From a virus: a DNA stretch of 29,994 bases. The stretch is taken from positions 1 to 29,994 of IMG/VR virus record IMGVR_UViG_3300046000_008723; one strand, 5' to 3'. A program made the translations under genes and the position numbers. Positions 14,286 through 29,106 of the stretch are shown here, piece by piece (position 1 is the first letter of the stretch; each line of letters starts with the position of its first letter). The notes under the pieces are model-generated. The model saw nothing but the letters and a program-made list of their open reading frames with translations. It was not told where the DNA came from and did no database searches.

Positions 14286-14726
14286 ATGTGGTTACACAAA
14301 AATAAAGTTATAGAAAAAATTGAAGATTTTGGAGAAAATACCCCATTTGGTTTTATATACAAAATAAAAAATATAGAAACAGGTAAATTTTACATTGGTA
14401 AAAAACAATTAATGTCTACAACTAATGTTAAAATGGGTAAAAAAGAACTTGCTGAACAACCAATTCAACGTGGTAGAAAAGTAACTAAAAAACAAGTAAT
14501 CAAAGAATCTAACTGGACAGAATATTGGGGTAGTAATAAATTTTTACTAGACGATATAAAGCAACTAGGAAAAGATAAATTTATAAGAGAAATCTTAATT
14601 ATATGTCCTACTAAAAAAATACACACCTACTATGAACTAGCAACTCAATGTATATATGATGTGTTACGTGCTAACAGCTATAACGACAACATAGAAGGAC
14701 GTTACTTTAGAAAAGATTTTGAATAA
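14286..14726 (+). CDS. GIY-YIG family endonuclease-like protein
   Basis: 146 residues. The GIY part is GFIYKIKNIETGKFYIGKKQ (from about residue 22), with FIY and YIG strands at the usual spacing. An insertion rich in Lys follows, then ESNWTEYWGSNKFLLDDI, matching the Y.GS motif, and YYELATQCIYDVL with a Glu in the expected catalytic-helix region. Phage GIY-YIG proteins include Seg-type homing endonucleases and other DNA nucleases. There is no DNA-binding repeat at the C-terminus, so a free-standing phage nuclease is likelier than a classical intron endonuclease. It begins 17 bases after the ART-like gene and is not inserted in another gene. Confidence 0.75.
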   Translation: MWLHKNKVIEKIEDFGENTPFGFIYKIKNIETGKFYIGKKQLMSTTNVKMGKKELAEQPIQRGRKVTKKQVIKESNWTEYWGSNKFLLDDIKQLGKDKFIREILIICPTKKIHTYYELATQCIYDVLRANSYNDNIEGRYFRKDFE

Positions 14727-16975: not shown

Positions 16976-17908
16976 ATGGATACTACAGCTTTAGTATATT
17001 TGATAGATTCTGTCTTAGGTAAAGGTAAATCAACCTCTAAAGGCAACAGAGCATACACTTGCCCTGAATGTAAACACCACAAACCAAAACTTGAAATTAA
17101 TTTGAATGAAAGTTCATCTCATTTTCAATCATATAATTGTTGGGCTTGTAGTTTTAAAGGTAAAAAATTAACTACACTATTTAAAAAAATAGAAGCAGAT
17201 CAAGATAAAGTAGAACAACTGCGATTCTTAGTTAAATCAACGTCTAAAGATTATAATGAAATAGTTGTAAGTAAAAAAATTGCACTACCTAAAGAATTTA
17301 TATCTTTATTAAACCCACCAAATAGTTTAACTGCAAAACATGCATTACATTATTTAAAAACACGAAATACTACTAAAGAAGATATTATTAAATACAACAT
17401 AGGTTACTGTGAATTTGGTATATATGCTAATATGATTATCATACCATCATACGATGATAAAGGAAATCTCAATTACTTCATACCCAGAAACTTTAATAAA
17501 AACTCTCCAATCAAATATAAAAACCCAGATGTGTCAAGAGATATAATTGGGTTGGAACTTTTTATAAATTGGAATACACCTATCACTTTATGTGAAGGTA
17601 TGTTTGATGCTATGGCTATTAAAAGAAATGTTATTCCATTATTAGGAAAAACAATTCAAAATAACTTAATGAAAAAAATCATTAATTCAACTGTACAAAA
17701 AATATATATTGCATTAGATAAAGACGCTATGAAACAAGCGTTAAATTTTTGTGAAGCTTTAATAAACGAAGGTAAAGAAGTTTACTTGGTAGATTTAGAC
17801 GATAAAGACCCTAGCGATATGGGGTTCGTAAAATTTACTAAATTAATACAAAACACTGTACCATTAACATTCTCAAATTTACTTGAGAAAAAACTACAAA
17901 TAATATGA
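16976..17908 (+). CDS. DNA primase (zinc finger plus TOPRIM)
   Basis: 310 residues. A zinc-binding domain uses C29, C32, C55 and C58 (YTCPECKHHKP ... YNCWACSFKG). The TOPRIM domain has the acidic residues expected: E207 in LCEGMFDAMAI, then D248 and D250 in IYIALDKDAMKQA, and a final DLDDKDPSDMGF. The length is like the T4 gp61 class of primases, which make RNA primers on the lagging strand with a replicative helicase. No helicase domain is fused and none is in this window. The stop overlaps the ATG of the PD-(D/E)XK nuclease, so the two are coupled. It is a replication gene placed among virion genes. Confidence 0.85.
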   Translation: MDTTALVYLIDSVLGKGKSTSKGNRAYTCPECKHHKPKLEINLNESSSHFQSYNCWACSFKGKKLTTLFKKIEADQDKVEQLRFLVKSTSKDYNEIVVSKKIALPKEFISLLNPPNSLTAKHALHYLKTRNTTKEDIIKYNIGYCEFGIYANMIIIPSYDDKGNLNYFIPRNFNKNSPIKYKNPDVSRDIIGLELFINWNTPITLCEGMFDAMAIKRNVIPLLGKTIQNNLMKKIINSTVQKIYIALDKDAMKQALNFCEALINEGKEVYLVDLDDKDPSDMGFVKFTKLIQNTVPLTFSNLLEKKLQII

Positions 17909-18699
17909 TAGAAAAAAATGTAAATGTCTTTAAGAAAAGCGTTAAACGCCTAGTAGAAGTAGACACTGAATCAAAACGAGTAAACATCTTAGACAATAGA
18001 TACTACACCAGAAATGGTAAATACTATCCATCAGTCACCAGTATATTACAGTATATGCCTAAAGGTAAATTTTTTGAAAATTGGTTGAAAGATGTAGGAC
18101 ATAACTCAGATATTATAGTTAGAAAAGCAGCAGATGAAGGTACACAGGTACATGATGCTATCGAAAGATATCTTCAAGGTGAAAAAATATCATTACTTAA
18201 TGAAGAAGGATATTCAAAATATTCGTTAGATGTTTGGAAAATGATTTTAAAATTTCATGAATTTTGGACAACACATAAACCAACTTTAATTGAAAGTGAA
18301 ATACACCTATTTTCAGATATATATGATTACGCAGGTACTTGCGATTTAGTATTAGAAATAAAAGGTGAAAAATGGTTACTAGATATTAAAACATCAAATT
18401 CATTACATGCTAGTCAAGATTTTCAATTATCAGCATACGCTCAGGCATGGAACGAGTTATATGAAGAAAAAATTGATCGCATTGGTATATTATGGATGAA
18501 ATCATCAAAACGTGGTGAAGATAAAAAAGGCGAAAAAATTCAAGGTAAAGGATGGGAAGTACATGAGCCAGAAAAATCGATTGAAGAAAATTTAAAAATA
18601 TTTGGATATTTACACGAGTTATATAAATTAGAACATCCCACACCAACCCCGCAAAGTAATGATTTCCCCATAGAAATTCAAATTGAACCAATATCTTAA
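17905..18699 (+). CDS. PD-(D/E)XK nuclease, RecB/Cas4-like exonuclease type
   Basis: 264 residues. Motifs in order: YPSVTSILQYMPKGKFFENW, GTQVHDAIERYL with H83, LIESEIHLFSDIYDYAGTCD with E130 and D147, LLDIKTSN with D160 and K162, and QLSAYAQAW. This H-E-D-DxK-QxxxY set is that of RecB-like/Cas4-like nucleases. Phage members act in recombination, end processing or host DNA breakdown. No cysteine cluster is present, so an iron-sulfur Cas4 is not supported. It is coupled to the primase by an ATGA overlap, suggesting a role in replication or repair. Confidence 0.82.
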   Translation: MIEKNVNVFKKSVKRLVEVDTESKRVNILDNRYYTRNGKYYPSVTSILQYMPKGKFFENWLKDVGHNSDIIVRKAADEGTQVHDAIERYLQGEKISLLNEEGYSKYSLDVWKMILKFHEFWTTHKPTLIESEIHLFSDIYDYAGTCDLVLEIKGEKWLLDIKTSNSLHASQDFQLSAYAQAWNELYEEKIDRIGILWMKSSKRGEDKKGEKIQGKGWEVHEPEKSIEENLKIFGYLHELYKLEHPTPTPQSNDFPIEIQIEPIS

Positions 18700-18751: not shown

Positions 18752-20086
18752 ATGAGTAATATAAATTCTTTAACATCTAAACTTACGTCTTTTTTAATAG
18801 AAGATAAACAATTAAATGAAATGTCTCAATCGTCTCTTCAATCTATAGAAGATTTTGCTGATAAAGAAATGGCTCCATTAGATATAGAATTTACTTCACA
18901 TTTTTTTAATAGATTAAATGACCCAAGAAATCTCAAACCCATTTCTCCTGCTGAACTTATAGGATTTTTTAAACGTTTAGCTCGTAAAAAAGATCAACTA
19001 ATTGATTTTCTTAAAAAATATAAGGAAGTAGTAGCAACTGATAATAGGACAAATATCAACATTCCTTTAATTCAACAAGTTAACTCAGCTATTGCTAAAA
19101 CCATAATGCGTAAAAAAGATTTTCAAACAACAAATCCCAAAATTCAATTTAATGAACAATGTGGGTGTGGTAGTCCATTACCAACAACATTGAAAGACGC
19201 AATGCTATCATTAACTACCTATATGATAGAAAATGATATGAATATATTACCATTACCGTCATTAAAACTAATAGACAACGATTCTAACAACGCTAATAAT
19301 ATATTTGGTCAAACAGCATATTATAATCCAAACGAGTGTTCAATAACGTTGTTTACATTAAATAGACATCCAAAAGATATATTGCGTTCATATGCTCATG
19401 AAATGATTCATCGTATTCAAGATAATGAAGGTAGATTAAAAAATATTAGTACTACTAACACAAATGAAGATGGTGAGTTACTTGATTTAGAAAAAGAGGC
19501 TTATTTAAATGGAAATATTACATTTAGAAATTGGGAAGACAGTTTAAAAAATCCTAAACCAGTAAATGAAATATACTTTTTAGATACAGAAAAATACAAT
19601 CGCCCAAAAACCTTTATAGATAAATTATGTGAGTCTTTAAATGAAATTACTTTAAATCCAAGTAACGCTGTTGAAATATATGGTGATTTAACTAAAGGTA
19701 AATTTCAAGTAGGAGATATTACATATGAATATGATATTAAACAAGTATCAAATCCTTATAATGATGGAGGAAGATTTTTTAATATAATGTTCCATCCTGA
19801 AGATAATAAAACTTCTACTCCTCAAGAAGGGAAAGAAAATTACATTAAAATATTATCTACAATGTATAAAGTTATATTAGATTTTGCTGAAGAAGCAGAA
19901 CCTGAATATATTGGGGTAGCATCATTAAATAACGGTAATAGTAAAAATTATCATATTGTATATGCAAATTTAACAGATAATAAATTTAATAGAATACCTG
20001 GGTATTTTAGAAAAGATGTAAATTTAGAATTTGATACTCCTCAAGGTAAAGGTAGATTTGTAGTATTAAAAAGAAAAGATGTATAA
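18752..20086 (+). CDS. Multidomain phage protein with HExxH metallopeptidase-like domain
   Basis: 444 residues. The N-terminus has LTSKLTSFLIEDKQLNEMSQ, a leader-like helix ending in LNE. Residues about 40-125 (FTSHFFNRLNDPRN, TNINIPLIQQ, IAKTIMRKKDFQTTNPKI) match a small domain I know from other marine-phage proteins, function unclear. C137 and C139 follow. The centre has YAHEMIHRIQDNEGRL with H216, E217 and H220, and a downstream EKEAYLNGN with E249, fitting a gluzincin-type zinc peptidase. The last 130 residues (GRFFNIMFHP, AEPEYIGVAS, IPGYFRK) look like a further phage domain that may resemble acetyltransferase-like folds. Three domains in one chain suggest a packaged effector or a processing enzyme. 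The peptidase call is from motif only. Confidence 0.55.
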   Translation: MSNINSLTSKLTSFLIEDKQLNEMSQSSLQSIEDFADKEMAPLDIEFTSHFFNRLNDPRNLKPISPAELIGFFKRLARKKDQLIDFLKKYKEVVATDNRTNINIPLIQQVNSAIAKTIMRKKDFQTTNPKIQFNEQCGCGSPLPTTLKDAMLSLTTYMIENDMNILPLPSLKLIDNDSNNANNIFGQTAYYNPNECSITLFTLNRHPKDILRSYAHEMIHRIQDNEGRLKNISTTNTNEDGELLDLEKEAYLNGNITFRNWEDSLKNPKPVNEIYFLDTEKYNRPKTFIDKLCESLNEITLNPSNAVEIYGDLTKGKFQVGDITYEYDIKQVSNPYNDGGRFFNIMFHPEDNKTSTPQEGKENYIKILSTMYKVILDFAEEAEPEYIGVASLNNGNSKNYHIVYANLTDNKFNRIPGYFRKDVNLEFDTPQGKGRFVVLKRKDV

Positions 20087-20104
20087 ATTAAAGAATATAT
20101 AATT

Positions 20105-20743
20105 ATGAATTACAAATATAGATTAACAGAACAAGATGAAGAAACCGGTTTAAAAGGTTTAAGATCACAAAACGAATTAGTATTAACTGGTAAAGGTGAA
20201 TTTGATGCTGATAAACTTCTTAATATATTAAATGATCCTAAATTTTTAGGAAGTGTTTTTGTTGATGAAAGTGTTGGATTAAAGGAATTAAAAATTAAAG
20301 TATTTGGAGATAAACCAAATGCTCCTACCACTCTTAAAACTAATATAAAAATTTATCAAGAAAATGGTAAAAATTTATATAATGAAATAGAAGAGAAAAC
20401 CGGGAAAAAATTTAATAAAAAAGACGCAGTTATTAAAAAAGATAAAGAACAAAACATACAATTTATATTTCCAAAATATATCATGGATAATGTTAAATTA
20501 GTAGAAGAATATTACGAAAAAGAAAAAAGTAGTGATGAAAAATCAAAACAAACAGATATTGAACCTACAAAAACAGATGATTTTACTATAAAATTTCCTA
20601 TAAATAATAGATCAACAGTTGAAAAAATATTAAATAATGCCAAATTAATATCTGGAGAAGATTATAAATTAAGTAAAGAAATGGCTGACGATAATTCATT
20701 ACGTAATACTATTAAAGAAATTATTCGCAAAATACAAAAATAA
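20105..20743 (+). CDS. Unrecognised charged protein with a leader-like C-terminal helix
   Basis: 212 residues, Lys/Glu/Asp-rich, no membrane segment. It starts MNYKYRLTEQDEE, a short leader ending in LTE. Residues 30-150 alternate short beta and helix segments (ELKIKVFGDKP, IQFIFPKYIMDN). A KSSDEKSKQTDIEPTKTD linker follows, then a small C-terminal domain ending SLRNTIKEIIRKIQK. That last segment resembles the leaders found at the N-termini of neighbours, but at the opposite end. Function unknown. It starts 18 bases after the metallopeptidase-like gene and is three bases from the next gene. Confidence 0.65.
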   Translation: MNYKYRLTEQDEETGLKGLRSQNELVLTGKGEFDADKLLNILNDPKFLGSVFVDESVGLKELKIKVFGDKPNAPTTLKTNIKIYQENGKNLYNEIEEKTGKKFNKKDAVIKKDKEQNIQFIFPKYIMDNVKLVEEYYEKEKSSDEKSKQTDIEPTKTDDFTIKFPINNRSTVEKILNNAKLISGEDYKLSKEMADDNSLRNTIKEIIRKIQK

Positions 20744-20746
20744 GTT

Positions 20747-21316
20747 ATGTCAGAAAACGTTTTAAAAAAAGATTTTAAAAAAGCAGATGTTCAACGCCTT
20801 CGTAACCTAATGACAGGTAAACATGGTGAAAAAACAACTACTAGTATAGGTTATACAAAGCAACAAGAATTCCATGTCGAAGGAGATGTATGGGAATCAG
20901 ATGGTAGACAATGGACTATCAAAAATGGTATCAAACAAAATCTTACTAAATTAGATAAAGCAAAAAAGGAGATAACTCTCCCACTATTTTGTCCTTGTTG
21001 TTCTAATTTAATGAAAAATAAAAACGATAAATTATTCTACATCCAGTATAAAAGATGTTTTAACTGTCAAATTGACTTTGAAACAGAATTGCGTATATTA
21101 GGATTATGGGAAGAATATGAAAAGAATATTATTAACTCCGATTTAGATCATGTAATTAAAGACTACAGTGTTTGGATGGATGAAGTTATAAATGGCTCAA
21201 ATGAAAGTTTCATTACTGAAGCTGGAGATATAGAAAAATGGGTTGGATCAACAAAGAAAAATTTATTAGAAAATAAGGAAGAAACAATTAAATATTTACA
21301 AACATTAAAAAAATAA
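20747..21316 (+). CDS. Zinc-ribbon phage protein, function unknown
   Basis: 189 residues. A treble-clef or ribbon-like site is formed by FCPCC (C82, C84, C85) and RCFNC (C104, C107). Ahead of it is a segment VWESDGRQWTIKNGIKQNLT that looks like a small beta domain, and after it a helical part (LRILGLWEEYEKNIINSDLD, VIKDYSVWMDEVINGS). The N-terminus is DFKKADVQRLRNLMTGKHG, not the leader type of its neighbours. Proteins like this occur in T4-like environmental phages without a defined function; a nucleic-acid or assembly role would be guesswork. Confidence 0.65.
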   Translation: MSENVLKKDFKKADVQRLRNLMTGKHGEKTTTSIGYTKQQEFHVEGDVWESDGRQWTIKNGIKQNLTKLDKAKKEITLPLFCPCCSNLMKNKNDKLFYIQYKRCFNCQIDFETELRILGLWEEYEKNIINSDLDHVIKDYSVWMDEVINGSNESFITEAGDIEKWVGSTKKNLLENKEETIKYLQTLKK

Positions 21317-21333
21317 AACAGAACCTGGAACTT

Positions 21334-21942
21334 ATGAGCACTATAACATTAACTATTTTAACAGCATTTATGACGGCTATTCTAGGCCCAGTTATAGTAG
21401 AATGGATAAAATTAAAATTTATCACTAAAAAATCAGACATATTAGGAGAGTCTATTTATAATGATGAAAAGATAGATCATCAGCTTGAACTTATTATAGG
21501 TGAATTAAATTGCGATAGAATATGCATTGCTCAATTTCATAATGGGGGTGTGTTTTATCCAACAGGTAAATCAATTAAAAAATTTAGTATATTTTATGAG
21601 CAAACCACCGATAAAGCTACGTCAATAAAGGAAACATTCCAAAATATTCCTGTATCTTTATTTCCAAAAGTGTTTTCCTTATTATATAAAGATGGTGAGC
21701 TAAATATTCCTAGCTGTAAACATAATATTGCGGATTGTGGTTTATTTCAGGTTGATGGAAAAGATTATAAAACTAAATCAATGTATATGTTGGCAATATA
21801 TGATTTAAATAATAATTTTATAGGTTCATTAACTATATCATATTATGAAAAAGAACATAAACTTTCATTAGACGAATGGACACTATTAAGACAAAAAGTA
21901 GGCGCAATAGGTACAATATTAACTGACTACTTGCATAAATAA
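21334..21942 (+). CDS. Membrane-anchored GAF-like protein
   Basis: 202 residues. Residues 3-24 are a hydrophobic helix (TITLTILTAFMTAILGPVIV) followed by positively charged KLKFITKKSD, so a single membrane anchor with the rest in the cytoplasm is likely. The soluble part has RICIAQFHNGGVFYPTGKSI, a middle hydrophobic helix region, and KSMYMLAIYDLNNNFIGSLT, which suggests a GAF-like sensor fold. In cells such domains bind small molecules or signal; here the ligand and output are unknown and no effector domain is attached. It is preceded by a 17-base gap and followed by a late-promoter-like motif. Confidence 0.6.
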   Translation: MSTITLTILTAFMTAILGPVIVEWIKLKFITKKSDILGESIYNDEKIDHQLELIIGELNCDRICIAQFHNGGVFYPTGKSIKKFSIFYEQTTDKATSIKETFQNIPVSLFPKVFSLLYKDGELNIPSCKHNIADCGLFQVDGKDYKTKSMYMLAIYDLNNNFIGSLTISYYEKEHKLSLDEWTLLRQKVGAIGTILTDYLHK

Positions 21943-21954
21943 TAAAATATACAA

Positions 21955-21964
21955 TATTTATAAT
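21955..21964 (+). promoter_or_regulatory. Candidate late promoter TATTTATAAT
   Basis: An exact copy lies in the 33-base gap after the GAF-like gene, 11 bases before the ATG at 21976. It would begin the unit of internal-protein-like genes that ends at the hairpin near 22630. Confidence 0.55.
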
Positions 21965-21975
21965 AAAATACAACA

Positions 21976-22392
21976 ATGATTAAACAATTTGAACATATGC
22001 AAAAATTGGCTTTTGGTAAAATACTTATCAAAGAGTCAATGATAAATGAAAAATTTACTAAAGATGCTTTAAAAGCTCATATTCGTGAAATAGTCTTAGA
22101 CGAAGCTAAAAAGAAAAAAGACAAATCAGAAGACGTAGCCCCACAAGAAGACGTTGACATTGATATTGAATCCTCAGAAGAAACACCAATGGACGTAACA
22201 CCCCCTGAAGCTAATCCTGAAGCTAATGCTGGTGGAGACATTGATCCAACAGTAAAATCTATACAGGATTCATTGCAAAAAGCGTTTGCTCAAGCTAAAA
22301 CATTAGGTGACGAGAAATTAATGAACCAAATAGGTAATACTATTACAATGCTTGTACGCACTCAAGTATTGGGTCAACAAGGTATGCAATAA
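21976..22392 (+). CDS. Acidic internal-protein-like protein with leader and LDE|A site
   Basis: 138 residues, family not recognised. The first 45 residues are a leader-like helical region with MINE at 22-25 and IREIVLDEAKKKK at 37-48; LDE|A at 43/44 fits the T4 prohead-protease pattern. A strongly acidic, Pro-rich, disordered part follows (DVDIDIESSEETPMDV), then a helical C-terminus (DSLQKAFAQAKTLGDEK, TITMLVRTQVLGQQ). The DNA for the DEAKKKK part is identical over 21 bases to part of the gene at 26980. It could be a head-core or internal protein removed or trimmed at maturation; that is inferred. Confidence 0.65.
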   Translation: MIKQFEHMQKLAFGKILIKESMINEKFTKDALKAHIREIVLDEAKKKKDKSEDVAPQEDVDIDIESSEETPMDVTPPEANPEANAGGDIDPTVKSIQDSLQKAFAQAKTLGDEKLMNQIGNTITMLVRTQVLGQQGMQ

Positions 22393-22431
22393 ATAAATTA
22401 ACAGTTATAAACCAATAAAAACAAAAACAAA

Positions 22432-22605
22432 ATGAACAGTCAAGAACTATTTGAACAAATTAGTGGGTTGTATGAAACAGCAAAAACTAACAACGCAGAA
22501 ACAACTAAAAAAGCAAAAGCAACAGCTCGTAAAGCATTAAGCGAAATGAAAAAAGTCATCGCTTCTTACAATAAAGCATCGGTTGCTGAAGCAAAAGCAA
22601 AATAA
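22432..22605 (+). CDS. Histone H1 (Hc1)-like small basic protein
   Basis: 57 residues. A polar N-terminal helix (NSQELFEQISGLYETAKTNN) leads into a basic helix TTKKAKATARKALSEMKKVI and an Ala/Lys tail ending EAKAK. The pattern of A..TRARKA[ML].E[LM]KK is that of the Hc1-like proteins common in Bacteroidota, which bind DNA without sequence specificity. In a phage it could help compact or protect DNA, or be packaged. It is followed after seven bases by a strong hairpin, so it closes a transcript. The start is the first in-frame ATG, preceded by an A-rich stretch. Confidence 0.65.
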   Translation: MNSQELFEQISGLYETAKTNNAETTKKAKATARKALSEMKKVIASYNKASVAEAKAK

Positions 22606-22612
22606 TTATAAA

Positions 22613-22640
22613 GGGGAGGTTTACCTCCCCATTATTTAAA
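22613..22640 (+). terminator. Rho-independent-type terminator after the H1-like gene
   Basis: Perfect 7-bp stem GGGGAGG (22613-22619) and CCTCCCC (22624-22630) with a TTTA loop, followed by ATTATTTAAA. It stands out as GC-rich in AT-rich DNA. The downstream T tract is weak, so efficiency is uncertain. Confidence 0.75.
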
Positions 22641-22649
22641 ATTATAAAA

Positions 22650-22829
22650 ATGGGTCCAATAGAAAAAGCATGTTTAGATGCTGAAAGTAGTAGAAAATCT
22701 AAATCGATTAATGAAAGTGAAAAAATATCACCTCGAATCCAGTCATTTTTAGATAAATGTACCAGAATAATCAATATTCTTAAAGATGATGATTTATTAG
22801 AAAAAGAAAGAACTAAACATTCAAAATGA
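22650..22829 (+). CDS. 59-residue hydrophilic protein coupled to the next gene
   Basis: A short gene starts at ATG 22650, just past the terminator, and ends with TGA at 22827-22829 overlapping the ATG at 22826 (ATGA). The protein is polar (IEKACLDAESSRKSKSINES) with a C-terminal helix SFLDKCTRIINILKDDDLLE. I do not recognise it. The overlap with a convincing gene and similar codon use support it being real. It may be an assembly or regulatory partner of the following protein. Confidence 0.55.
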   Translation: MGPIEKACLDAESSRKSKSINESEKISPRIQSFLDKCTRIINILKDDDLLEKERTKHSK

Positions 22830-23545
22830 GTAAACTAACAGATTTAGGTAAAAGATTAGATAATATAGATAATTATATTAGAAAAGATGTACCTAAAGAT
22901 ATTTGGATATTAAGAGCTATAATTCCTGAATTTATTAATGATATTAAAACTGAAGCAACCGAATTTGAAGAACAAAAAATGATTGAAATATTAAATGAAT
23001 TAATAGATCAATATGAATTTAGATTTAATAAAACATTTGAAAATTTAAATGAATCAATAATAATACCAACATTAACATCAAAAGAAATATTATTTAAAAA
23101 CCAACTTTATAATCAATATAAAAAGAATAAAAGAAAGTTCGTAAAAGATTATGGAGCAGATGCTGAAAAAGTTATGGTTGGAAGAGCAATTACATTAGCC
23201 AAGAAAATGACAGAAAAAGAAAATAAACAACGAATTAAAGAAATGATCCAAGCTGCCCTTACCAAAGGACCAGTTGAAGAAATCGATTCTGCATCGTTTG
23301 TACAAAACCAAAAACCGGCATCTAATATATCTATTGTAGATAAAGAAAAAAATCCTGAAGACGTAATTAAAGTTGATGTCCCATTATTGATTCGTTTATT
23401 AGAATATGCTAGAGAAGATGCTAAAACAGATATGGATTTACATGTTGTAGCCGAAAATTTAATTGAGTTATGTAAAGAAGGTAGAACATTAAATATGGAT
23501 GACTATGAATCAATAGTTGCCTCAGACGAAGCCAAAAATGACTAA
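22826..23545 (+). CDS. Helical phage protein of unknown function
   Basis: 239 residues, mostly helical and charged, no membrane segment. Notable strings are LGKRLDNIDNYIRKDVPKDI, KKNKRKFVKDYGADAEKVMV and RAITLAKKMTEKENKQRIKE; the last region is familiar from other phage proteins and often ends in KE.I..AL. A linker follows, then a second helical domain (VDVPLLIRLLEYAREDAKTD, HVVAENLIELCKEGRTLNMD). No catalytic motif is seen. Position among leader-bearing genes suggests a related use. Its final codons overlap the next gene. Confidence 0.6.
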   Translation: MSKLTDLGKRLDNIDNYIRKDVPKDIWILRAIIPEFINDIKTEATEFEEQKMIEILNELIDQYEFRFNKTFENLNESIIIPTLTSKEILFKNQLYNQYKKNKRKFVKDYGADAEKVMVGRAITLAKKMTEKENKQRIKEMIQAALTKGPVEEIDSASFVQNQKPASNISIVDKEKNPEDVIKVDVPLLIRLLEYAREDAKTDMDLHVVAENLIELCKEGRTLNMDDYESIVASDEAKND

Positions 23546-24023
23546 AGACGATTTAAGAACTAGAATTAAAAATATAGTTAAAAATGTATATTCAAAATCA
23601 GATAAATCTACAACTAAAGTAGATTTAGACTCTGCTACTCCGGTATCATTAGACACAGCTCGATTTCCAGTACTAGTAAAATTTCCTACACTACTTGATA
23701 CTATTGTTAAATTATTAACAGATCAATATGATTTGTTTTTAAAAGACATTGAATGGGTAGCGCCACGCCCTACTACATTTCGTATTGTATTAGCAAATGA
23801 TCAAGTATTTTATTTGATCTACACTGATAGAACATGGATTGGTAAAGTAGAAGGTAAAAAATATTACTTATTAAATATAAGTGAAGAACAAAATTGTGTT
23901 GAGTCTATAGCTAGAATATTAGCGTATGGAGTTAAAGTTGAAAAACTAATAGAATTACCACCAGCAGAAGCACCAGCACCGGAAACTCCTGAAACACCAC
24001 CAACTGAAGAAACCCCAGTATAA
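23538..24023 (+). CDS. Phage protein with leader-like N-terminus and Pro/Glu-rich tail
   Basis: 161 residues from ATG 23538; a TTG 21 bases upstream is open but less likely, because the ATG overlaps the previous stop and gives the leader-like start MTKDDLRTRIKNIVKNVYSK. A compact middle domain (ARFPVLVKFPTLLDTIVKLL, FLKDIEWVAPRPTTFRIVLA, LIYTDRTWIGKVEGKKYYLL) looks like an alpha/beta fold. The C-terminal 25 residues are PAEAPAPETPETPPTEETPV, a disordered acidic tail. No known enzyme motif. It is three bases from the next gene. Confidence 0.65.
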   Translation: MTKDDLRTRIKNIVKNVYSKSDKSTTKVDLDSATPVSLDTARFPVLVKFPTLLDTIVKLLTDQYDLFLKDIEWVAPRPTTFRIVLANDQVFYLIYTDRTWIGKVEGKKYYLLNISEEQNCVESIARILAYGVKVEKLIELPPAEAPAPETPETPPTEETPV

Positions 24024-24025
24024 TT

Positions 24026-25210
24026 ATGAATCGTATTAAACAACTTATTAAAGAAGTTTTATCTACTCCACCAAAAAAGGAATCATGTAATTGTGGTTGT
24101 CATTCTTGTGATAATGTAGGTAATAAGGGTCCGGTACTTAATGAAAATTTAGGTGCTCGTATAGTAATGACTGAAAACATGAAATATCATGTTAAAAATA
24201 AATTACCATTAATTGAAAATACATTTCGCTATAGTTCACAAGCTTTTTTAGATTTATGGGCTGAAGCACGTTATTTATATTCTCGTAATGTTATTCATTT
24301 AAATGAAGATGATAAATCAATTATATTAGAAACTAATTTGGGTGAATATGGGATGTATGGGGGTCAAAAAGTACCTTTAGATATGCCTTTATTAGAAAAT
24401 GAAATTGGAACATCTAAAGATATTGACTATCCTATTCAATTTAAAGCTCTTAGTAACTTAACGGGTGTAGTTGGTGAAAAAATTCAACAATTAAAACAAG
24501 AAGAAAAAGATAGAGGTATAAATTTTACTGGAGATTTAGAATTATTAAGTAAAGAAGATAAAGCAATAGTTCAAAAAAGACTAAGAATGCTTAATTTACT
24601 TAAAGAATTAGATAAAATATTTTCATTTGAAAATAAAACTGTAAGTTACAATACTATAGTAAATACTTTAAAAAAATATGACGCTATCGATCTACTACCT
24701 TCAGTAGAAGCTGGATTAAATGAAGAAAACGAATTAGGTGGTGAAGAAGATATTGAATTATCATTTATGGATTCAACTACTCCAATAATAAAAGATTTAT
24801 ATAAAAAATATAAAGAAACAGGTAATGAAAAATATGCTGATATATATGATAAATTAGTACATGCTTCACCTCAAAAAAGGCAAGCACTTATAAATAAATA
24901 CTTTCCTGAAAGATTAAATGAATCAGAAGACAAAAAGAATCCCCCATTAAATAAACCTAAGCGTGGTGGATCTAAGAAATTTTATGTATATGTTCGTGAT
25001 CCAAAAACTAAAAATATTAAAAAAGTTAGTTTTGGAGATACAACAGGATTATCTGCTAAAATAAATAATCCAAAAGCACGTCAAGCGTTTGCAAAACGTC
25101 ATGACTGTGCTAATAAAAAAGACAAAACAAAAGCATCTTATTGGAGTTGTCATCTTCCAAGATATGCTAAATTATTAGGTATAAAATCAAATTTTAGTGG
25201 ATATTGGTAA
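24026..25210 (+). CDS. Leader-bearing protein with Cys cluster and C-terminal DUF5872-like domain
   Basis: 394 residues. Residues 1-19 are the leader MNRIKQLIKEVLSTPPKKE, followed at once by CNCGCHSCD (C21, C23, C25, C28), a likely metal site. The middle (about 50-300) is long, helical and acidic, with SFMDSTTPIIKDLYKKYKET. From about residue 309 comes a Lys/Gly-rich domain: GGSKKFYVYVRDPKTKNIKK, VSFGDTTGLSAKINNPKARQ, AFAKRHDCANKKDKTKASYW, SCHLPRYAKLLGI. This is the pattern I know as DUF5872 in T4-like and cyanophage virion proteins. It is probably a virion-associated, perhaps packaged, protein. A TAATG overlap couples it to the next gene. Confidence 0.7.
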   Translation: MNRIKQLIKEVLSTPPKKESCNCGCHSCDNVGNKGPVLNENLGARIVMTENMKYHVKNKLPLIENTFRYSSQAFLDLWAEARYLYSRNVIHLNEDDKSIILETNLGEYGMYGGQKVPLDMPLLENEIGTSKDIDYPIQFKALSNLTGVVGEKIQQLKQEEKDRGINFTGDLELLSKEDKAIVQKRLRMLNLLKELDKIFSFENKTVSYNTIVNTLKKYDAIDLLPSVEAGLNEENELGGEEDIELSFMDSTTPIIKDLYKKYKETGNEKYADIYDKLVHASPQKRQALINKYFPERLNESEDKKNPPLNKPKRGGSKKFYVYVRDPKTKNIKKVSFGDTTGLSAKINNPKARQAFAKRHDCANKKDKTKASYWSCHLPRYAKLLGIKSNFSGYW

Positions 25211-25584
25211 TGGAAAAACTTAGAAAATTAATTAAACAAGAAGTATTGAGAACTCTAAACGAAGACTCTGCATCTAAAGTATATAAAATTGAAGGATTAT
25301 TAGTAACTAATAACGATATTAAATATCAAAACCAATTACTTTCAGATATTAGATCAGTAACAGGTGTTACAACTATAGATGCTCAAGAATATACTCCTCG
25401 TATACGTAAAGAAAATTATTCATACAATAAGTTATCTGTTAAAATTGATCCATATCCATACTTAAAAAATGATGGAAAATTTGATATTGATACTATTAAA
25501 CAAGTTATTACAAACATCGGAAATATCAAAGGAGTAATAAAATTTAAAGTAGACAATCCACAAATGATTAATGTTGGTTTATAA
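25210..25584 (+). CDS. Leader-bearing protein with ferredoxin-like domain
   Basis: 124 residues from ATG 25210, which overlaps the previous stop (TAATG); a TTG at 25204 is less likely. Residues 1-19 (MEKLRKLIKQEVLRTLNED) are one of the cleanest copies of the leader, ending in LNE. The rest looks like a beta-alpha-beta fold: VYKIEGLLVTNNDIKYQNQL, LSDIRSVTGVTTIDAQEYTP, LSVKIDPYPYLKNDGKFDID, GNIKGVIKFKVDNPQMINVG. I recognise the pattern from other phages but know no function. No catalytic residues are obvious. The stop overlaps the next start. Confidence 0.65.
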   Translation: MEKLRKLIKQEVLRTLNEDSASKVYKIEGLLVTNNDIKYQNQLLSDIRSVTGVTTIDAQEYTPRIRKENYSYNKLSVKIDPYPYLKNDGKFDIDTIKQVITNIGNIKGVIKFKVDNPQMINVGL

Positions 25585-25859
25585 TGGAAAAAGAATTTAA
25601 TATAACTGAGTGGATACTTAAAAGTAAGTTAAACGAAGAACAAGAAGAAGAGTATCCTTCATATATGTACTCTCCAGTTGGTTTTAGCTGTAAAGTATGT
25701 AAATTTGTTGCATTCAACAAAGATGAAGATAGATGGGTATGTAGTAATAAAAACTACCAAGAATATATGGGTACTCATTATTTAGTAGATAATAATAAAG
25801 AACCAATAAAAGATCCTTCAAAATGGTGTTCTAATTGGTTTATGCCTAAAGGAGAATGA
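25584..25859 (+). CDS. Small four-cysteine protein (zinc or iron-sulfur)
   Basis: 91 residues. The first 20 (MEKEFNITEWILKSKLNEEQ) include a leader-like helix ending in LNE. The core has C36 and C39 (FSCKVCKF), C53 (WVCSNKNY) and C82 (KWCSNWF). The spacing CxxC, 13, C, 28, C with the final C-S-[ND]-W-F is typical of small phage metal-binding proteins; whether it binds zinc or an iron-sulfur cluster cannot be told. It overlaps the previous gene (TAATG) and the next (ATGA), so three genes are tightly coupled. Confidence 0.6.
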   Translation: MEKEFNITEWILKSKLNEEQEEEYPSYMYSPVGFSCKVCKFVAFNKDEDRWVCSNKNYQEYMGTHYLVDNNKEPIKDPSKWCSNWFMPKGE

Positions 25860-26116
25860 TCCCATACACAGACATAGAAATTACAGACAAATATATCATT
25901 CGTGAATTTAACGAAAATATAGACCCAATTGAACTTATGTGGCATCGTGATGATGAACATCGTACATTAGAAATATTAGGTAAAACAGATTGGAAAGTAC
26001 AACTTGAAAATCAATTACCAACCTCACTAAATGAATCAATACATATACCAAAACATGAATGGCATCGTGTAATCAAAGGAACAGGTACGCTTAAATTAAA
26101 AATATATAAATATTAA
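25856..26116 (+). CDS. Small cupin-like protein
   Basis: 86 residues. Candidate metal ligands fall in the order of a minimal cupin: LMWHRDDEHRTLEIL (H30, D32, H35), a middle WKVQLENQLP, and SIHIPKHEWHRVIKGTGTLK with H47-type and later His residues, followed by LKIYK. Such one-domain proteins bind a metal or small molecule. It has no leader. The start ATGATC overlaps the previous stop. It closes the coupled trio; the next gene has its own promoter-like spacer. Confidence 0.5.
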   Translation: MIPYTDIEITDKYIIREFNENIDPIELMWHRDDEHRTLEILGKTDWKVQLENQLPTSLNESIHIPKHEWHRVIKGTGTLKLKIYKY

Positions 26117-26171
26117 TATAACTTGGATTACACAAAATAATTTAGTATATTAATCAAAAAAACTTAACGTT

Positions 26172-26948
26172 ATGAATAAATCTAAAAGATTATTTTTTGA
26201 TATCGAAACTAGTCCAAACATAGGAATGTTTTGGACAGCTGGATATAAATTGAATATTGGTCATGATAATATTATTAAAGAAAGAGCAATCATATGTATT
26301 TGCTACAAGTGGGAAGGTGATGAAAAGATCTATTCTTTAACTTGGGATAATGATCAAAACGATAAAAAAATGTTAGAAAAATTTGTGTTAATAGCTAACG
26401 AAGCAGATGAATTAGTAGGACACAATGGAGATAAATATGATTTAGCATGGATTAAAACCCGTTGCTTATTTCATGGTATTCCAATGTTTCCAAAATATAT
26501 AACTATAGATACATTAAAACAAGCTCGTGCGCATTTTAGATTTAATAGTAACAAGTTAGATTATATAGGTAAGTTTTTAGGATTAGGTGAAAAAATTCAT
26601 ACTGGTTTTGACTTATGGAAAAACATTGTTTTAAATAAAGACAAACAAGCCTTAGAAGATATGGTTACATATTGTAAGGGTGACGTTGATTTATTGGAAA
26701 AAATATATAATAAAATGTCTTCATATTTTCCTCATAAAACACATCTTGGTGTTTCAATAGGAGAAGATAAATCATCATGTCCTCATTGTGCATCAACAAA
26801 TATGGCTTATAGTAGAAAACGTATATCTGCATTAGGAACATTCAGAATTCAATTACAATGTAAAGATTGTGGAAAATATCATACTGTGTCTAATAGAGTA
26901 TATGAAACAATGATAGCGAAACAATTCGAAGAAAATAATAACATTTAA
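26172..26948 (+). CDS. DnaQ-type 3'-5' exonuclease with C-terminal zinc ribbon
   Basis: 258 residues. Exo motifs: I is RLFFDIETSP (D10, E12), II is ELVGHNGDKYDLAWIKTR (N85 and nearby Asp), III is YCKGDVDLLEKIY (Y167, D171). This is the YprB/RNase-H-like (DnaQ) nuclease pattern. A zinc ribbon follows with C203, C206, C230 and C233 (CPHC ... CKDC). Such enzymes degrade single strands or RNA ends; the ribbon may aid nucleic-acid binding. It carries no leader, like the other replication enzymes here. A 55-base spacer precedes it. No polymerase domain is fused, so it is not a full T4-type polymerase. Confidence 0.82.
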   Translation: MNKSKRLFFDIETSPNIGMFWTAGYKLNIGHDNIIKERAIICICYKWEGDEKIYSLTWDNDQNDKKMLEKFVLIANEADELVGHNGDKYDLAWIKTRCLFHGIPMFPKYITIDTLKQARAHFRFNSNKLDYIGKFLGLGEKIHTGFDLWKNIVLNKDKQALEDMVTYCKGDVDLLEKIYNKMSSYFPHKTHLGVSIGEDKSSCPHCASTNMAYSRKRISALGTFRIQLQCKDCGKYHTVSNRVYETMIAKQFEENNNI

Positions 26949-26959
26949 TTTCTTTAATA

Positions 26960-26969
26960 TATTTATAAT
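26960..26969 (+). promoter_or_regulatory. Candidate late promoter TATTTATAAT
   Basis: An exact copy lies in the 31-base gap before the ATG at 26980, 10 bases away, the same arrangement as at 21955. Both genes downstream carry leaders and the EAKKKK element. Confidence 0.55.
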
Positions 26970-26979
26970 AAAATAAAAA

Positions 26980-27543
26980 ATGAATAAATTAAGACAACTT
27001 ATACGCGAATCAATTGGTAACTACATTAGTGAAATTAATGAAGCAGGAGATATTTCAGCTTGTGAAGCGAAAATAAATAAAACTAATGAAGCTATTGAAC
27101 TTCGTGAAAAAAAGATGAACATGGAAGGCATCGATGAAGCTTACCATGATTTACTTGATAAAACCAAAATGAAAGAACTTGGTGGTGAAGTTAAAGCATT
27201 GAAAAAAAGTTTAGTAAAATTAGAAAAACAACTTGAAAAATTAAAATCGAAAGGTAATAAAAAAGAAAAAGTAGAAGATACTGAAGAAAAAGAAATCGTT
27301 GATGAAGTTGTTATTGATGAAATGGATTCTGAATCTGATTCACAATTAGAGGAAACAGACGACATGGGTATCTACGAAATGCTCCATATGCAAAAAATGG
27401 CAGGTATCATCTCAGAATCTGAATATGTTTCTAAAATTAACGAAGCTAAAAAGAAAAAAGCATCTGCGGATATGACTAAAAAAGCTAAATCAGCAGTAGT
27501 TACAAAAGCACGTGCTGGTAAAGATATTGATAAAAAAAGCTAA
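26980..27543 (+). CDS. Coiled-coil protein with leader, INE|AG sites and basic tail
   Basis: 187 residues. The leader MNKLRQLIRESIGNYISE is followed by INE|AG (E21/A22), a good match to the T4 prohead-protease pattern. Then comes a long charged coiled coil (KINKTNEAIELREKKM, VKALKKSLVKLEKQLEKLKS), an acidic stretch (EEKEIVDEVVIDEMDSESDS), a hydrophobic MLHMQKMAGIISESEY, and a second site INE|A at 155/156 followed by KKKKASADMTKKAKSAVVTK. The basic tail would suit DNA binding. The DNA around the second site is identical over 21 bases to the gene at 21976. Probably a head-core or internal protein; this is inferred. Confidence 0.65.
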   Translation: MNKLRQLIRESIGNYISEINEAGDISACEAKINKTNEAIELREKKMNMEGIDEAYHDLLDKTKMKELGGEVKALKKSLVKLEKQLEKLKSKGNKKEKVEDTEEKEIVDEVVIDEMDSESDSQLEETDDMGIYEMLHMQKMAGIISESEYVSKINEAKKKKASADMTKKAKSAVVTKARAGKDIDKKS

Positions 27544-27553
27544 ATCATAAATA

Positions 27554-28543
27554 ATGATTAAACTTATTGATATATTAAATGAATTAAAACTTGATAAACA
27601 CTATCTTGATAGAAAAACAGACCGAGTTATTAATATTAGAAAAGTCATTGTTCCTAATGAAGCATTGGGTGATTTTACATTAGCTGAAATTCAAGAGCCT
27701 TTAATAAATGCTATTAGAAGTAAATTATTACTTAAGCTTAAAAAATTAGAAAAAGATGATTTACCTAGATCTACAGGTAGATTTATTGGATATAAAATTT
27801 TTACTCCATTTGTAACAGCTAATGGAAAACGATACCCCATAAATATCATAACTGATGAAGGATCAGGAACATATTACTATTTAGTAATTAAAGATAATGT
27901 AGCATATACTATAATTGTATCTACTGAGGAAGATTTGTATTTTAAAATAAAAGATCATATGGAGAGAAAACACCCAGATGATGTTAAGAAAAAAACACCT
28001 GTTGAAGTAATGTCATATGAGGGTGGAGTAGAATTATTTTATCTACCTGAATTAATGGGTACTATACAAAAACAGGAAAAAGTACTTGAAAAAGATTTAC
28101 CATATTCTGTTAGAACTGATTATAGGATAGGAGCAAATTTCGACCATAAAGATTATGGTACTGGCAAAATAGTAGCAACATCAACTGGAAACGCAGGTAA
28201 AGCTGATTCAAGAGGAATGTTGGCGTGGGTAGAAATAGATTTTGGTAAACCTTATTTGTCCGGAGGCAAATTACAGAAGACAAGAAAAATCGCTAATGTA
28301 TATGCCAAGCCATATTTTGATCAGGAATCAAATTTTGATGTAGTAAATGAAGATAGAGAAATTAAAAGTATTGAACATTATCAACAGCTTTTAAAAAATA
28401 CTAGAGTTTCACCTTCAACATATAAACTTTTTCAAAACGTTATAGACTTAGTTAAAAAACAAGATGGAAAAGCTACTGAGAAACAGTGGGATATATTACA
28501 AAGAATAAAAACTGGAATTTTTAAACCATCAACTAAAAATTAA
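27554..28543 (+). CDS. Leader-bearing protein with Tudor/SH3-like domain
   Basis: 329 residues. The start MIKLIDILNELKLDKHYLDR is the leader type and is nearly the same as the next gene's start. The middle holds a beta region (GRFIGYKIFTPFVTANGKRY). Around residues 190-260 is YRIGANFDHKDYGTGKIVAT and GMLAWVEIDFGK, the G..V.H..FG.G.V pattern of small Tudor/SH3-like domains. The end is helical: LFQNVIDLVKKQDGKATEKQ and WDILQRIKTG, also known from other phage proteins. Function unknown; a nucleic-acid or protein-binding role is possible. The next gene follows within two bases. Confidence 0.62.
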   Translation: MIKLIDILNELKLDKHYLDRKTDRVINIRKVIVPNEALGDFTLAEIQEPLINAIRSKLLLKLKKLEKDDLPRSTGRFIGYKIFTPFVTANGKRYPINIITDEGSGTYYYLVIKDNVAYTIIVSTEEDLYFKIKDHMERKHPDDVKKKTPVEVMSYEGGVELFYLPELMGTIQKQEKVLEKDLPYSVRTDYRIGANFDHKDYGTGKIVATSTGNAGKADSRGMLAWVEIDFGKPYLSGGKLQKTRKIANVYAKPYFDQESNFDVVNEDREIKSIEHYQQLLKNTRVSPSTYKLFQNVIDLVKKQDGKATEKQWDILQRIKTGIFKPSTKN

Positions 28544-28545
28544 TA

Positions 28546-28983
28546 GTGATAAAACTTATCAATATATTAAGATCTATTCTTAAAGAAGAAGAAGAACCAC
28601 AACCAGATCCATTTTTAGGAGCTCCTGAGGAACCAGCACCTACACCTGAAGAACCTATGGGTATTATTACCCCAGATGTAGCCAAGAAACTTATTTTTGA
28701 TACTAAAGGTATGTTTTTTACTGTTGTTTTTATTAAAAAAGACGGTACAACTCGTACAATGAATGCTCGATTAAATGTTAGAAAGTATTTAAAGGGAGGA
28801 GAATTAACATATAATCCATATGAAATGGGGTATATTCCTGTTTATGATATGGGTGCTAAAGGATATAGAATGGTTAACACTAATACTGTTAAATCATTAA
28901 AAATAGGAAAGAAAACATATACACTTCCTGGCGCTATAGCTGAAAGTAAAGAAGATCATGAATTAGTATGTGAAGCATATTAA
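28546..28983 (+). CDS. Leader-bearing small beta-barrel protein (GTG start)
   Basis: 145 residues from GTG 28546, which follows the previous stop in TAATAGTG. Residues 1-15 (MIKLINILRSILKEE) are a leader copy. An acidic Pro-rich linker (EEPQPDPFLGAPEEPAPTPE) is followed by a beta domain: FFTVVFIKKDGTTRTMNARL, NVRKYLKGGELTYNPYEMGY, GYRMVNTNTVKSLKIGKKTY. This SH3-like pattern (KKDG..R.MN.R..V.KYLKGG) occurs in other phage proteins and probably binds a partner in the virion. It ends before a non-coding stretch with hairpins. Confidence 0.65.
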   Translation: MIKLINILRSILKEEEEPQPDPFLGAPEEPAPTPEEPMGIITPDVAKKLIFDTKGMFFTVVFIKKDGTTRTMNARLNVRKYLKGGELTYNPYEMGYIPVYDMGAKGYRMVNTNTVKSLKIGKKTYTLPGAIAESKEDHELVCEAY

Positions 28984-28999
28984 TAAATAAAAATTTAAA

Positions 29000-29020
29000 G
29001 AACACATTCATTGCGTGTTC
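29000..29020 (+). other. Small hairpin in the 28984-29116 gap
   Basis: GAACAC (29000-29005) pairs perfectly with GTGTTC (29015-29020) around a 9-base loop. It lies 17 bases after the stop of the previous gene and 26 bases before the larger hairpin. No T tract follows. It may be a processing or stability element. Confidence 0.4.
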
Positions 29021-29036
29021 GAATATAACAAAGTTA

Positions 29037-29086
29037 AAAGAGTAGTGGCCTGATCTTATTTCAAGATCGGGCCTCTTTAATTAGGC
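29037..29086 (+). terminator. Strong hairpin terminator between the last virion-type gene and the FAD gene
   Basis: GGCCTGATCTT (29047-29057) pairs with AAGATCGGGCC (29063-29073) over 11 bp with one G-U, around the loop ATTTC. Flanking AAAGA and TCTTT can extend it after a bulge, and TTTAATT follows. It separates the 18.7-29 kb cluster from the FAD-dependent gene and its own promoter-like motif. Confidence 0.75.
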
Positions 29087-29106
29087 TTACTTAATCAAAT
29101 AATGTA

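Follow-up and report, generated by a model that had tools for sequence, protein, structure and literature searches.

What is a gene for a histone H1-like protein doing in a phage genome? The question is raised by a stretch of viral DNA of 29,994 nucleotides (nt), positions 1 to 29,994 of the IMG/VR record IMGVR_UViG_3300046000_008723, which is called the window throughout. An earlier note, made from the letters alone, had described in it a 57-residue protein resembling Hc1, a histone H1-like family, with a hairpin behind its gene. The protein was indeed found, and its membership in the Hc1 family (Pfam PF07432), judged by sequence comparison, is sound yet transitive. Our favoured reading, held tentatively, is that of a dimeric architectural (nucleoid-type) protein, owned by the phage, that would bind or bridge phage DNA in replication and recombination. 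This reading is based on purifying selection, Hc1 homology via the relatives, a predicted helical hairpin, a split of charge along the protein, and the replication and recombination genes that neighbour the gene in other phage lineages.

Selection and membership in the Hc1 family

The gene and its leader are placed as follows:
22393–22431, + strand: A-rich leader of 39 nt, upstream of the Hc1-like open reading frame (ORF)
22432–22605, + strand: Hc1-like gene, an ORF with an ATG start and a TAA stop, 57 residues

The ORF at 22432–22605 is a real gene under purifying selection. The family set comprised the best 80 of 97 confirmed related stretches in viral contigs, plus two phage records. Two lineages are distinguished below, lineage A (35 loci, including the window) and lineage B (44 loci, many of them near-identical contigs). 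The median ratio of nonsynonymous to synonymous substitution rates (dN/dS) is 0.139 in lineage A (132 pairs, 18 distinct sequences) and 0.074 in lineage B (113 pairs, 16 distinct sequences). An alignment of 17 diverse relatives (A1) has 16 invariant columns. No obvious Shine-Dalgarno sequence was seen in the 39-nt leader; in most of the relatives displayed, the gene has a comparable A-rich leader. An Rfam scan of 22300–22800 gave no match.

The window protein alone does not match PF07432, remaining below the curated Pfam cut-off of 23.5 bits, but its relatives do match, and together with the profile controls this makes the membership sound, although transitive. PF07432 was matched by 16 of the 17 members of alignment A1 (best expectation value, E, 1.7e-10). 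A match at E <= 1 is present in 30 of 32 phage records, and 25 contain one above the curated cut-off; the window record and one other, L040, are without a match. The protein of locus L003, which is 88% identical to the window protein, passes the cut-off at 25.4 bits, and both PF07432 matches of the 635-kilobase (kb) phage LR745206 lie above it. NCBIfam returned no Hc1 family for the 17 relatives, and no PDB sequence scored better than E 0.24 against the family profile.

Composition was controlled by scoring 10,200 shuffles against two Hc1 profiles. The first was built from 29 Bacteroidota proteins (one of the 30 cellular loci, L117, was excluded by a length filter), the second from six Hc1 proteins, five of them from contigs with the label Marinimicrobia and one from a contig with the label Verrucomicrobia. 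With the Bacteroidota profile, 78 of the 82 relatives score above the best shuffle (12.0 bits); with the Marinimicrobia-type profile, all 82 do so (14.1 bits). The window protein itself beats its shuffles with the Marinimicrobia-type profile only, reaching 45.2 bits versus 9.9 for its own best shuffle. An hhalign comparison of the phage type with standard Bacteroidota Hc1, made on a single pair, gave a probability of 85%.

According to the earlier note, its claim would fall if the protein proved to be just a low-complexity Lys/Ala peptide with no relation to Hc1, and the shuffle controls and the PF07432 matches of the relatives did not bear this out. A likeness to Hc1 by composition only would fit the 10 lysines and 11 alanines among the 57 residues, as well as the missing Pfam match of the protein itself. 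It is nevertheless highly improbable, as same-composition shuffles fall far below the window protein with the Marinimicrobia-type profile, 16 columns are invariant among 17 diverse relatives and dN/dS is well below 1. This candidate was rejected on the shuffle controls and dN/dS.

Predicted structure and gene neighbourhoods

The AlphaFold2 model, built with 32 sequences and as a monomer only, predicts a helical hairpin with helices at residues 3–21 and 26–56 (mean predicted local distance difference test score 95.5, predicted template modelling score 0.75). The conserved basic residues K26, R33, K34, K40 and K41 are all located in helix 2. The window protein has an isoelectric point (pI) of 9.7; its net charge is −2 N-terminally and +7 over the rest of the chain. 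In 43 distinct relatives, the median charges are −3 and +7, the pI ranges from 9.0 to 9.9 and the length from 56 to 59 residues, and a lysine-rich C-terminal DNA-binding tail is absent. The PF07432 model has 57 positions, which we take to cover just the N-terminal dimerisation domain of Chlamydia trachomatis Hc1.

According to the favoured reading, the product would be a small basic helical hairpin consisting of the Hc1 domain alone. Homology with the dimerising N-terminal domain of chlamydial Hc1 makes a dimer probable, and DNA would be bound by the basic residues conserved in helix 2. The protein would act on replicating phage DNA rather than in the virion.

A search of viral structures returned ‘Histone H1 [uncultured virus]’ as the top match (template modelling score, TM, 0.89/0.83), though at E 0.36. 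Among the top PDB structure matches are chains of Aqs1 (TM 0.67/0.62, E 2.3), a phage anti-activator. The protein could thus be a small host-takeover regulator, mechanistically unrelated to nucleoid proteins, which would form a helical-hairpin dimer and bind a protein of the host as Aqs1 does. This is improbable, since the PDB matches are all weak (E above 1), many unrelated helical hairpins have similar scores, and the Pfam Hc1 homology and the conserved basic residues fit a role with nucleic acid better.

The genes around the Hc1 gene in the window are the following:
21976–22392, + strand: upstream neighbour, cluster c5, adjoining the Hc1 gene in 35/35 lineage-A loci
22650–22829, + strand: ORF of 59 residues, between the hairpin described below and the c6 gene
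22826–23545, + strand: downstream neighbour, cluster c6, the first or second gene past Hc1 in 34/34 lineage-A loci with downstream sequence
16976–17908: primase, in the wider block around the Hc1 gene
17905–18699: exonuclease, in the same block
26172–26948: DnaQ-like exonuclease, in the same block

The window gene is thus set among mostly unassigned genes, between the primase and the DnaQ-like exonuclease. The hairpin and the 59-residue ORF separate it from c6 in the window and in L003; this ORF is not found in most of the lineage. Pfam assigned 5 of 58 neighbour proteins of the window lineage to a 5'-nucleotidase family and otherwise gave weak matches only.

Four types of neighbourhood were observed in the viral subfamily: one with a single-stranded DNA-binding protein (SSB), RecA, exonuclease and helicase, one with a RecA-like gene, one with GroEL, and that of the window. 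In lineage B, a DnaB-like helicase adjoins the Hc1 gene upstream in 40 of the 44 loci and lies within four genes in the other 4. Upstream of the helicase are a 5'-3' exonuclease, RecA and a gp32-like SSB (domains taken from one representative, L055), and ribonucleotide reductase genes follow downstream in most loci. In the 635-kb phage, a RecA-like gene stands immediately upstream of the phage-type copy. Flavobacterium phage immuto has DNA polymerase, GroES and GroEL upstream of its Hc1 gene; its block collinear with the window primase region is free of the gene, which is ~70 kb away. The viral Hc1 subfamily travels mostly with DNA-replication genes, and in several phage lineages a histone H1-like domain is encoded near the replication genes.

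Several observations weigh against the favoured reading. With the Bacteroidota Hc1 profile, the window protein scores 7.1 bits versus 9.8 for its own best shuffle, and no structure match reached E 0.001 or better in the PDB and viral-structure searches. The protein is the counterpart solely of the dimerisation domain of chlamydial Hc1, so that homology by itself gives no implication of DNA binding. The immediate neighbours in the window lineage have no known function. A GroEL-cluster gene (chaperonin) adjoins the Hc1 gene upstream in immuto, L036 and L037 (3/3; annotated in immuto), and a weak match (E 0.0014) links one c5 relative to a head scaffolding family.

The last match would suit a protein that compacts phage DNA ahead of its entry into the capsid or within it, as proposed in print for the Hc1 protein of moraphages (PMC12619734), and the chlamydial Hc1 is described as condensing chromatin (PMC2848022). 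Compaction or packaging is still distinctly unlikely here. Where the genes nearest to Hc1 are identified (lineage B, the 635-kb phage, immuto), none is structural, the DNA-condensing tail is absent, and no virion proteome was found in the literature. The suggestions that the protein is packaged in virions or blocks host transcription both went without support, the neighbours leaning to replication genes.

Two side observations concern the wider window. In 20001–29000, GC skew becomes steadily positive from ~20 kb, a short way before the Hc1 gene. The gene at 14286–14726 is called ‘NAD synthetase’ by PHROGs and in the immuto annotation, a label that looks wrong because Pfam gives a SegE GIY-YIG endonuclease (E 2e-23).

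The hairpin downstream of the gene

One further feature follows the Hc1 gene:
22613–22630, + strand: GC-rich hairpin GGGGAGG-TTTA-CCTCCCC, perfect stem of 7 base pairs, loop of 4 nt

The hairpin begins 7 nt past the Hc1 stop codon and probably ends or stabilises the transcript. With Watson-Crick pairing required throughout, and a stem of 7 or more pairs of which 6 or more are GC, no other hairpin of this kind was found in the window, and a terminator scan lists this one as well. The fold of the region has a z of −2.6, with equally good folding in 2 of 200 shuffles. The T-tail that follows on the + strand, ATTATTTAAA, is of middling quality; on the − strand, too, the hairpin can be read as a terminator. 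A second terminator-like hairpin, at 29047–29073 just before the ORF at 29102, has 11 pairs, 6 of them GC, and the tail TCTTTAATTA. As this one has more pairs, the description of the Hc1 hairpin as the cleanest in the window holds for GC purity, not for total pairing.

Hairpins were surveyed within 60 nt of the stop codon. In lineage B, they are present at 43 of the 44 loci, in 16 distinct sequences whose fifth stem pair is A-T, C-G or T-A, a compensatory pattern. Lineage A has hairpins at 6 of its 35 loci. Three of these are of the GGGGAG type (window, L003 and L018); those of L025–L027 sit inside the next gene and were not counted as terminator-like. The GroEL group has 2/3 and the 635-kb phage 0/1, and the stops of other neighbour genes, used as a control, have 3/585. 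The gap between the Hc1 stop and the following gene is 0–6 nt in most of the lineage-A loci displayed. A terminator-like hairpin is thus typical of lineage B and not of the window lineage (3/35): the gene's ‘own terminator’ is present in the window, but it is not a lasting feature of its lineage.

Cellular relatives and known systems

That the Hc1 family is typical of Bacteroidota agrees with our survey, in which PF07432 was found in 117 of 198 Bacteroidota genomes. The phage protein could therefore interfere with the host nucleoid, its Hc1 domain pairing with or displacing the short Hc1 of the host and so loosening or silencing the nucleoid. The cellular forms examined are also short (57–67 residues), and what is conserved is the counterpart of the dimerisation domain. 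We regard this as unlikely. Between the phage type and standard Bacteroidota Hc1 the relationship is distant, as seen in the hhalign value and in separate groups of the tree, and direct pairing is less likely for that reason. No match at E <= 0.001 was obtained for 81 of the 198 genomes, and placement among replication genes gives no hint of a host target.

The tree, of 88 rows and few columns, includes 8 of the 29 cellular sequences. All phage sequences form a 54-row set with one Bacteroidota family and three sequences from contigs of metagenome-assembled genomes (MAGs) (100/98), apart from standard Bacteroidota Hc1 (89/83). The window protein groups with phage proteins, without a close cellular relative in the tree, and the placement of a donor by comparison with Bacteroidota Hc1, as the earlier note proposed, did not succeed. 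The copies of the one Bacteroidota family (7 rows) group with phage L040 (100/97). In this family (L125–L131, L159–L167), phage-type Hc1 is single-copy in 16 of 23 genomes; in one it lies on a 2.84-megabase contig. Genes next to it, as seen in three genomes, encode among others a sulfate permease, an alpha/beta hydrolase and a phosphoribosyltransferase. It is conceivable, if doubtful, that the viral subfamily, distinct from standard cellular Hc1, moved among unrelated phage lineages as a component of the replication equipment, and also from a phage to the chromosome of this family as a resident nucleoid protein. Such a possible link between phage and chromosome bears on the origin of bacterial nucleoid proteins.

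Other members stand out from these groups. The second Hc1 match of LR745206.1 (L002), at 567427–567558, scores 61.1 bits versus 26.2 for the phage-type copy and is nearer to the Pfam consensus. Among 29 loci, which also served for the motif comparison below, a 63-residue variant of some Bacteroidota genomes (L132–L135) is neutral to acidic (pI 5.4–6.6), unlike other members. Phage-type Hc1 also occurs on two short MAG contigs, L084 and L085, labelled Deltaproteobacteria and Pelagibacter, which may be viral contigs binned wrongly.

The Hc1 gene had also been offered as a clue to a Bacteroidota host. Such a host is plausible from sequence matches of other proteins. The window baseplate protein is 46% identical to that of immuto, tied at 46% by Microcystis phage Mel-JY01, and the 15 best-ranked matches of a 258-residue exonuclease are all from Flavobacterium phages (52.5%). 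The window phage probably infects Flavobacteriia-type bacteria.

In comparison with known systems, Bacteroidota chromosomal Hc1 is in the length class of the phage type and aligns with it from end to end; both have an R-x-RK core and, behind it, conserved K and R/Y positions. The phage type differs by the lack of the GNKAAG motif, by an N-terminal QELFEQ stretch and by a Y-x-KAS end. Apart from the one Bacteroidota family, the closest cellular relatives are Hc1 proteins of Marinimicrobia (Fidelibacterota), with 44–52% identity among the matches listed. These retain both the GNKAAG motif and a KKLVTxYRKASV end, and differ by a three-residue insert and by their neighbours, an ammonium transporter and a gene of the dihydrodipicolinate synthase (DHDPS) family (one case checked).

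In Chlamydia trachomatis Hc1 (HctA), the corresponding part is the N-terminal dimerisation domain; the chlamydial protein is described with a lysine-rich DNA-binding C-terminal tail (PMC2848022), which the phage protein lacks. In this case the label ‘histone H1’ covers only the dimerisation domain, and DNA compaction is not to be assumed from annotation.

Phage Hc1 proteins are already in print. PF07432 proteins were reported in 2025 in four complete moraphages, a 200–307 kb lineage with mostly predicted Bacteroidota hosts, and genome compaction was suggested; the available part of the report gives them without gene context or family analysis (PMC12619734). The comparison with moraphages is by description, and the window protein is a further phage member. 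In full-text literature, from which most subscription papers are missing, this was the only paper found for PF07432 and phage, and none was found for histone H1 and Flavobacterium phage.

The nearest case in an isolated phage is immuto26A_75, a hypothetical protein of immuto (host Flavobacterium sp. LMO8), which is 56% identical to the window protein over 57 residues. Its gene differs in place: it comes after GroES-GroEL, a long way from the part of the immuto genome that is collinear with the window. As immuto carries the gene and has a cultured host, the role of the phage Hc1 protein is open to direct testing.
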